Shown here one piece after another: positions 5,729-8,717 of a stretch of 10,101 bases of DNA. The notes under the pieces are model-generated. The model searched no databases and was not told where the DNA came from. It saw only the letters and a list, made by a program, of their open reading frames with translations. The stretch is taken from NCBI GenBank assembly GCA_945947845.1, contig CAMEZN010000031.1:1-10101 (forward strand), written 5' to 3'. Each line of letters begins with the position of its first letter. Position 1 is the stretch's first letter. The position numbers and the translations under genes are program-made. This DNA is from an uncultured Mucispirillum sp. Lineage in GTDB: Bacteria; Chrysiogenota; Deferribacteres; Deferribacterales; Mucispirillaceae.

Positions 5729-6189
5729 ATAAAATTATACAGCCATTAGAATGGGTAGATGACTTAAAAATGGGTGATTATGCCCTTGATAACCATACAA
5801 AAGAGTTTCTGCGGTTTGCAAACATATTTATAGATGCAAAAAATGTTGGTAATGGCGAAGAACAGCTTGATAATGTATTAAATCATCTTACAGAATATTC
5901 TCATAAACACTTTCCTTCTCAGGAAGATTTAATGGAAAGAATTCACTATCCATCATACGATGAACATAAAGCTGACCACAAAAAATTTAATTTAGGAGTT
6001 GCTAAACTTTTGAAAAAAAGATTACTGCTTAAAAGAACAAATGTGCCTGCTGATGAATATGACGAAAGAGGTGTAGAAGGTGTTTTAACTGATATTGCAG
6101 ATTTTATTACTGACTGGTATCACAGCCACCTGCTTAGTGCCGATAAAAGACTTTCTGATTATTATAATTACGAATATAAAGGCTTATAA
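5725..6189 (+). CDS. Divergent bacteriohemerythrin
   Basis: A 154-residue four-helix hemerythrin-fold protein, a family that binds O2 or senses O2/NO through a non-heme di-iron site. Recognisable parts are LEWVDDLKMGDYALDNH at 8-24, HFPSQEDLM at 62-70, YPSYDEHKADHKKF at 75-88 and WYHSHLLSAD at 131-140. The Fe1-type ligands H81, H85, H135 and the bridging D140 are present, and so is the Fe2-type H62. The bridging Glu position (first E of the usual HFxxEE) is Q66, with E67 next to it. In a gapless alignment the first His position is T25, with H24 one residue early. The stretch between H85 and H135 is also longer than usual. The TTG start at 5725 is supported by GAGGTG at 5714-5719 and by the 4-base overlap with the upstream membrane protein gene. 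Confidence 0.9.
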   Translation: MNKIIQPLEWVDDLKMGDYALDNHTKEFLRFANIFIDAKNVGNGEEQLDNVLNHLTEYSHKHFPSQEDLMERIHYPSYDEHKADHKKFNLGVAKLLKKRLLLKRTNVPADEYDERGVEGVLTDIADFITDWYHSHLLSADKRLSDYYNYEYKGL

Positions 6190-6362
6190 AATAAAAGCTG
6201 AGCTTATATATTAACAGCATTACCCATTAATTTGGCAATAATAAATGGTAGTGTATAATTAGAATATAAGTATTATTTTATTAAATAAATATTATTTGGG
6301 ACATCTCTAAAAATCAGAAATATTATTAATATATACTAATTTTCAAGGATTATTTTTCTACT
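6190..6362. other. AT-rich spacer after the hemerythrin gene
   Basis: Very AT-rich with no supportable gene. A short AAGCT-G-AGCTT hairpin lies just after the hemerythrin stop, and an imperfect ACCCATT/AATGGT pairing follows. Neither has a proper T-run, so I see no clear terminator. Confidence 0.5.
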
Positions 6363-6787
6363 TTACCCCCATTTTTTTACAAGAATATTTATAACTATTT
6401 AATAATAAACAAGAAAATGTTTTATAAGTATAAAAATAGACTTTTAAAAAATAATATAATATTAATATGTTTTTTATCCGCATTTAAAAGAGCCCCCGTG
6501 TTATTTCATTATCTTTGCGACTTAATTGTATATGAGCAATTTTTTCGTAATGTTTTGCTGTCAGATTGTTTGAGTGAAGCGAGTTGCTGCAGCAATGAAG
6601 AAAAAATTGTGAATGATTATGCAATTCGGAGCATAAGGAATGAAATAACAAAAAGTTTGCTTTATGAGATTTGCGGCGGTAAGATAGTGTAAAATATTAT
6701 AAAAATACATATTATTAGAAAATATAAAACACAAATTTTACTGTAAAATAATGACTGTTCCATGCAGTTTTAAAAAAATGGGGGTAA
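6363..6787. repeat. 425-bp palindromic element with 17-bp terminal inverted repeats (MITE or fold-back-like)
   Basis: TTACCCCCATTTTTTTA (6363-6379) is the perfect reverse complement of 6771-6787. Inside, further complementary blocks pair in almost constant register about a centre near 6575: 6418-6426 with 6723-6731, 6478-6482 with 6672-6676, 6500-6510 with 6639-6649 (11 bp), 6524-6528 with 6622-6626, 6537-6546 with 6600-6609 (10 bp), and 6555-6560 with 6590-6595. The segment is therefore one long degenerate palindrome, not just two ends. A TA dinucleotide flanks the C5/G5 termini on both sides (6364-6365 and 6785-6786). That would fit a TA target duplication of the IS630/Tc1-mariner type, but TA is also simply part of the repeat. 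No transposase is present. The open frame at 6417-6692 lies inside and is probably not a gene. Confidence 0.65.
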
Positions 6788-6805
6788 GGCAAATGCAGAA
6801 ATAAC

Positions 6806-6831
6806 TTGACAATCCCCCCCCCAGTTATAAC
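6806..6831 (+). promoter_or_regulatory. Probable phase-variable promoter of the repeat lipoprotein gene
   Basis: A perfect -35 box TTGACA (6806-6811) and a 5-of-6 -10 box TATAAC (6826-6831) are separated by AT, nine C and AGT: 14 bases, three short of the 17-base optimum. Transcription would start near 6838, about 29 bases before the GTG. Because the spacer is mostly a homopolymer, slippage would change spacing and promoter strength. The allele shown is predicted to be weak or off, and twelve C would give 17 bases. Confidence 0.6.
6814..6822 (+). repeat. Poly-C tract (nine C) in the promoter spacer
   Basis: Nine consecutive C in otherwise AT-rich DNA, placed exactly between the -35 and -10 boxes. 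Homopolymeric C/G tracts of this length are typical contingency loci that change length by slipped-strand mispairing. Confidence 0.85.
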
Positions 6832-6866
6832 ATACACCATACACTATATTTAAACGGAGGGTAAAA

Positions 6867-8717
<1,851 letters not shown>

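Follow-up and report, generated by a model that had tools for sequence, protein, structure and literature searches.

A poly-C tract in the promoter spacer of a lipoprotein-like gene from an uncultured Mucispirillum, probably one of a slippage-variable promoter set

Promoters with a homopolymer in the spacer are an already known type, represented by opc, porA, and fetA of Neisseria. Excerpts of the published accounts describe an unstable homopolymer between the −10 and −35 elements of porA and fetA (PMC2791445), and, for opc of Neisseria meningitidis, a parental tract of 11 C that is 12 C long in high-Opc variants (PMC3447861). Does a run of nine C upstream of a lipoprotein-like gene in an uncultured Mucispirillum work in the same manner, or is it a static spacer, or simply a mutable tract of little consequence? 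The stretch of DNA analyzed here in full, hereafter the window, comprises 10,101 nucleotides and constitutes contig C31 of genome G000, a 1.93-Mb metagenome-assembled genome (MAG) that is 75% complete and distributed over 336 contigs.

The preliminary description of this locus had identified TTGACA, nine C, and TATAAC with a 14-base spacer, and re-reading of the sequence confirmed the letters and coordinates exactly. The homopolymer sits between recognizable −35 and −10 boxes, the identity of the latter being ambiguous. It is the sole run of such length in the window, where shuffled versions contain 0.01 on average and 3 of 200 shuffles reach one. The features of the locus are as follows.

6169 to 7006, no strand: block almost identical to genome G004 by alignment, with flanks 83–86% identical
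6363 to 6787, no strand: dispersed element with 20-nt inverted-repeat ends, 18 bases from the −35 box
6806 to 6811, plus strand: −35 box TTGACA, with an identical box at ten loci of G000
6812 to 6813: AT, between the −35 box and the C tract
6814 to 6822, plus strand: C9 tract in the promoter spacer, from the sequence, the genome run count, and shuffles
6823 to 6825: AGT, between the C tract and TATAAC
6826 to 6831, plus strand: −10 candidate A, TATAAC, spacer 14
6828 to 6833, plus strand: −10 candidate B, TAACAT, spacer 16 (preferred)
6856 to 6860, plus strand: ribosome-binding site GGAGG
6867 to 8717, plus strand: lipoprotein-like open reading frame (ORF) of 616 amino acids with a GTG start, its signal sequence ending in VVYGC (Cys18)
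6972 to 7330, plus strand: 18-bp in-frame tandem repeat inside the 616-aa ORF, 19.9 copies, encoding TGDGGN

A promoter scan of the window stretch reports TTGACA-16-TAACAT, matching at 10 of 12 positions, under rules that require T at position 6 and a spacer of 16–18 and hence exclude TATAAC; the same scan reports six promoter-like sites in the stretch versus 7.3 in shuffles. A profile of 44 sister promoters with TG context assigns 0.07 bits to TAACAT and −6.23 bits to TATAAC in the window, while on the hexamer alone TATAAC is slightly ahead (2.56 vs. 1.89). The window has C9-AG-TTA-TAACAT and its G004 orthologue C9-AG-TGA-TAACAT, for which the profile likewise prefers TAACAT when TG is counted (7.77). 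We are fairly confident, on these sequence grounds, that the −10 of the window promoter is TAACAT rather than TATAAC. With TAACAT, nine C already set a spacer of 16, near the optimum, so that the earlier forecast of a weak present allele that would be on at 11–13 C, which rests on TATAAC, is not supported.

The downstream product had been portrayed as a repeat-rich surface lipoprotein. The tandem repeat, the signal sequence, and Cys18 agree with a repeat-rich lipoprotein that may be surface-exposed, but a strict lipobox rule misses the ORF because of the unusual Y at −2 in VVYGC. The 616-aa protein has no Pfam match; its C-terminal part has five relatives (E ≤ 0.001 among 5466 candidates), three of which keep the N-terminus and likewise start lipoprotein-like.

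Two long alignments of the window with G004 are 83–86% identical. In the block that spans the promoter, two differences from G004 occur, a substitution at 6826 within the −10 region and an indel in a T run; the gene diverges again from 7007. It appears likely from this alignment that the promoter and 5′ end were recombined or transferred between the two lineages, a chimeric contig being a conceivable alternative source of the near-identical block. The element at 6363–6787, about 425 bp in length with strong predicted folding (z −4.4), looks like a MITE from its sequence, and partial relatives of it occur in several other fetched loci, some with poly-C promoters.

The promoter is one of many. 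G000 contains 20 distinct C/G runs of at least nine, whereas an order-1 model trained on 78.8 kb of this genome predicts 0.68, and the pattern TTGACA-N(2-4)-C(8-10) accounts for ten loci in it, with zero for the reversed-pattern control. Such sites are present in nine of the ten genomes of the genus, the exception being a genome that is 57% complete; the reversed controls are zero except in G006 (3 and 1 in one search, 1 in another). Across the phylum, one further genome among 50, G047 of the same family, has sites. From the fetched neighborhoods, 77 distinct sites were parsed, four of them from G047, with identical stretches counted once. They typically take the form TTGACA-WW-C9-RTGA-TATAAT, which includes an extended −10; 44 sites fit [AG]TGNTA. 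Of the 68 parsed promoters with a recognizable −10, 43 have a spacer of 15, the other nine of the 77 being left out. A G-run version of the layout, TTGACA-N10-G9-TATGAT, is present in G000 (L013, position 2187) and is matched by L263 in G004, also with nine.

These promoters lie mostly before genes for lipoproteins and other exported proteins. Under a fixed rule, an ORF preceded by a ribosome-binding site was assigned downstream of 65 of the 77 sites, and the remaining 12 were dropped. A strict lipobox is found in 42 of the 65 ORFs versus 6 of 73 background ORFs of the same loci (Fisher p 1e-12, a value too small because orthologues are not independent). About six of the 23 ORFs without a strict lipobox, the window's among them, look lipoprotein-like by eye. 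Family scans of 53 of the 65 products gave six matches to RCC1 repeats and three to an outer-membrane barrel family, and none for that of the window.

Similar layouts occur elsewhere. In a scan of named genomes, the matches listed come from many uncultured Clostridia as well as from members of some other phyla; 68 of the matches listed, found with a pattern of at least eight C, fall outside Mucispirillum and its family, and of these 39 are C9, 20 are C8, and 48 have a spacer of 15 or 16. Fourteen genomes behind the listed matches, chosen for having a match, were then searched, with reversed controls of zero. At least five matches were obtained in four Clostridia (G050, G051, G052, and G062), a Treponema (G055), and a Bipolaricaulota genome (G056), and one to three in each of the other eight. 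We infer that the larger sets outside Mucispirillum are separate sets as opposed to products of shared descent.

The locus is probably best explained as a slippage-variable sigma-70-type promoter with a poly-C spacer. Replication slippage would add or remove a C and so alter the distance between the −35 and −10 boxes, and the altered distance would change how strongly individual cells transcribe the lipoprotein gene; with TAACAT as the −10, nine C would correspond to a spacer of 16 and ten C to a spacer of 17. As the promoter belongs to a set located mostly before genes for lipoproteins and other exported proteins, each gene would be tuned independently. This reading presumes that these boxes act as a promoter, that the level of expression depends on tract length, and that switching would be frequent within one strain. 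The original likening to contingency promoters such as porA and opc thus survives as the best reading, given the family, the lipoprotein bias, and some length differences, and it loses the on/off forecast and a wide spread of lengths.

How much the tracts vary was assessed by matching them between genomes through flanks at least 88% identical, with one genome per species and with the proviso that MAG assembly may hide minority lengths. Among promoter tracts, identical stretches unmerged (n = 79), 3, 7, 61, 7, and 1 have lengths of 7, 8, 9, 10, and 11, respectively. Of 17 matched promoter pairs, 4 differ in length, about two of them through independent length changes. A C9 (L199) is paired with a C7 (L222) in flanks that are 98.5% identical and without a flank gap, and another C9 (L232) is paired with C8 in both L200 and L220, a single event that supplies two of the four differing promoter pairs. 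The L196/L209 difference is a substitution at the tract edge, as is the case for some of the eight differing pairs. Tract length varies among relatives in these four promoter pairs, but 61 of 79 tracts are exactly C9, and the sole orthologue found of the window locus itself (in G004) is also C9.

Independent draws of the observed lengths would make 6.6 of the 17 promoter pairs differ (P = 0.15), and 7.8 of the 18 other, non-promoter pairs, of which 4 differ (P = 0.057). Matched pairs differ less than independent draws, so change between these species is slower than full re-drawing; the pairs can be accommodated either by slippage around a strong resting length or by slow change, and are not proof of switching. 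G002, which consists of one contig, has 54 tracts of at least seven (5 of length 7, 6 of length 8, 33 of length 9, 8 of length 10, and 2 of length 11), and 98 kb fetched from it contain a single run of 6. Non-promoter tracts share the peak at nine (84 of 114), so that nine is better read as a mutational resting length than as a promoter setting. Nor is tract length compensated by flank length in Mucispirillum (59 of 77 sites, permutation p 0.81), so that spacers run from 12 to 19. A search of viral contigs for strain variants gave five matches, none recognized as Mucispirillum. One 5-kb viral contig (L250) has the same downstream flank at both ends, one end having C11 and the other C9.

These distributions bear on the possibility that the promoters form a fixed class, in which the C run serves as a static spacer or as a regulator binding site of a lipoprotein regulon, without switching. 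Such a class would account for the dominance of one form across genes and species, evident in the C9 peak, the modal spacer, and the agreement of 13 of 17 pairs, as well as for the common TG before the −10. It also finds a parallel in two Clostridia genomes, where 15 of 18 promoters have a spacer of 16 and some carry A in place of the first C, as though total length were kept constant, with compensation that is not significant (p 0.19). Yet the C9 peak recurs in intragenic tracts, which have no promoter spacing to maintain, compensation is missing in Mucispirillum, and all lengths from C7 to C11 occur, including the C9/C7 pair in nearly identical, gap-free flanks. We regard a fixed class as unlikely.

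The converse possibility, that C or G runs of about nine are a mutational habit with little effect, the promoter being unused or its −10 strong enough to ignore spacing, draws on the 89 of 124 tracts in loci of four genomes that lie outside TTGAC-N-C promoters and on the two overlapping −10 readings. It is improbable, considering that the tracts follow −35 boxes far beyond chance, as the nearly zero reversed controls indicate, and are situated mostly before lipoprotein genes. Loss of mismatch repair as the cause was rejected, MutS1 and MutL being present (above cut-off in 7 and 9, respectively, of the ten genomes of the genus). In this respect Mucispirillum is unlike Campylobacter jejuni, which is not known to carry MutS1 or MutL. 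The retention of these proteins also tells against the slippage reading: for meningococci with MutS, an excerpt of the opc report records no opc change among the colonies sequenced (PMC3447861).

It also counts against slippage that the modal spacer of the poly-C promoters is 15, not the 16–17 favored by non-poly-C TTGACA..TATAAT matches, of which 16 of 42 have such spacing where 7 are expected (p 7e-4; duplicates removed by hand, from 48 to 42). Perfect TTGACA..TATAAT pairs are nevertheless a weak measure of the spacing optimum, their 27 and 29 matches falling below the 34 and 44 of the reversed control. Tentatively, slippage and standardization can be joined. TTGACA-WW-C9-RTGA-TATAAT would be a standardized dispersed cassette before many Mucispirillum lipoprotein genes, with nine C as a mutational equilibrium that leaves most promoters 1–2 bases short of optimal spacing; each lipoprotein would then be mostly low, with a random rise in rare cells and a combinatorial surface as the outcome, and similar sets would have formed separately in some Clostridia, a Treponema, and a Bipolaricaulota genome. 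This combined picture is possible, though doubtful in its entirety.

Tracts with the same length peak are also found inside genes of contingency type, namely, those for glycosyltransferases, a DNA methylase, and HsdS. In one matched coding tract, with flanks 95% identical and free of gaps, the G10 of L261 (G004) is closed after 4 codons and the G9 of L293 (G007) is open for 330 codons to the locus end. Poly-G tracts also follow directly upon the Tat lipoprotein signal in DmsA/YnfE-like molybdopterin oxidoreductase paralogues at 14 loci (L024, L258, L269, L277, L278, L288, L289, L291, L294, L296, L301, L302, L308, and L311), of which five are open past the tract and nine close within 0–11 codons, each with a long second frame. 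The family assignment comes from scans of four open ones, with scores below NCBIfam cut-offs, three of the four being cut at locus ends. These paralogues are candidates for phase-variable anaerobic respiration. Similarly, genes for DNA methylase (N6_N4_Mtase) and for type I specificity (Methylase_S) contain poly-G at L020, L276, L272, and L284, which makes phase-variable methylation a candidate.

Among described systems, opc offers the closest structural likeness, with a homopolymeric C tract in the promoter spacer of a gene for an outer-membrane protein. In Mucispirillum, the tracts precede a set of lipoprotein genes, most are C9, the modal spacer is 15, and the −10 is frequently extended, whereas opc is a single gene with 11–12 C for which switching has been shown. 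The promoters of porA and fetA likewise share the homopolymer in the spacer and differ in their genes and phylum. Many C/G tracts in a gut bacterium recall C. jejuni NCTC11168, for which the part of the report cited counts 29 tracts of seven or more and describes them within reading frames (PMC4965091); G002 exceeds this number, and Mucispirillum adds a promoter class.

In the literature searched, mostly without subscription journals, no description of phase variation in Mucispirillum was found, and the main text of the M. schaedleri genome paper does not contain "phase", "homopolymer" or "promoter". In the sections cited here, Mucispirillum schaedleri is described as a mucus-dwelling member of the core mouse gut flora that rises under inflammatory stress, and draft genomes of the cultured strain ASF 457 are reported to represent two recently diverged lineages (PMC5285517). 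The poly-C promoter set before envelope-protein genes suggests that Mucispirillum varies its surface by random gain or loss of single C residues. If its lipoproteins do switch by slippage, clonal cultures and gnotobiotic mice would carry hidden surface variants, and these could bear on colonization, immune recognition, and reproducibility between laboratories.
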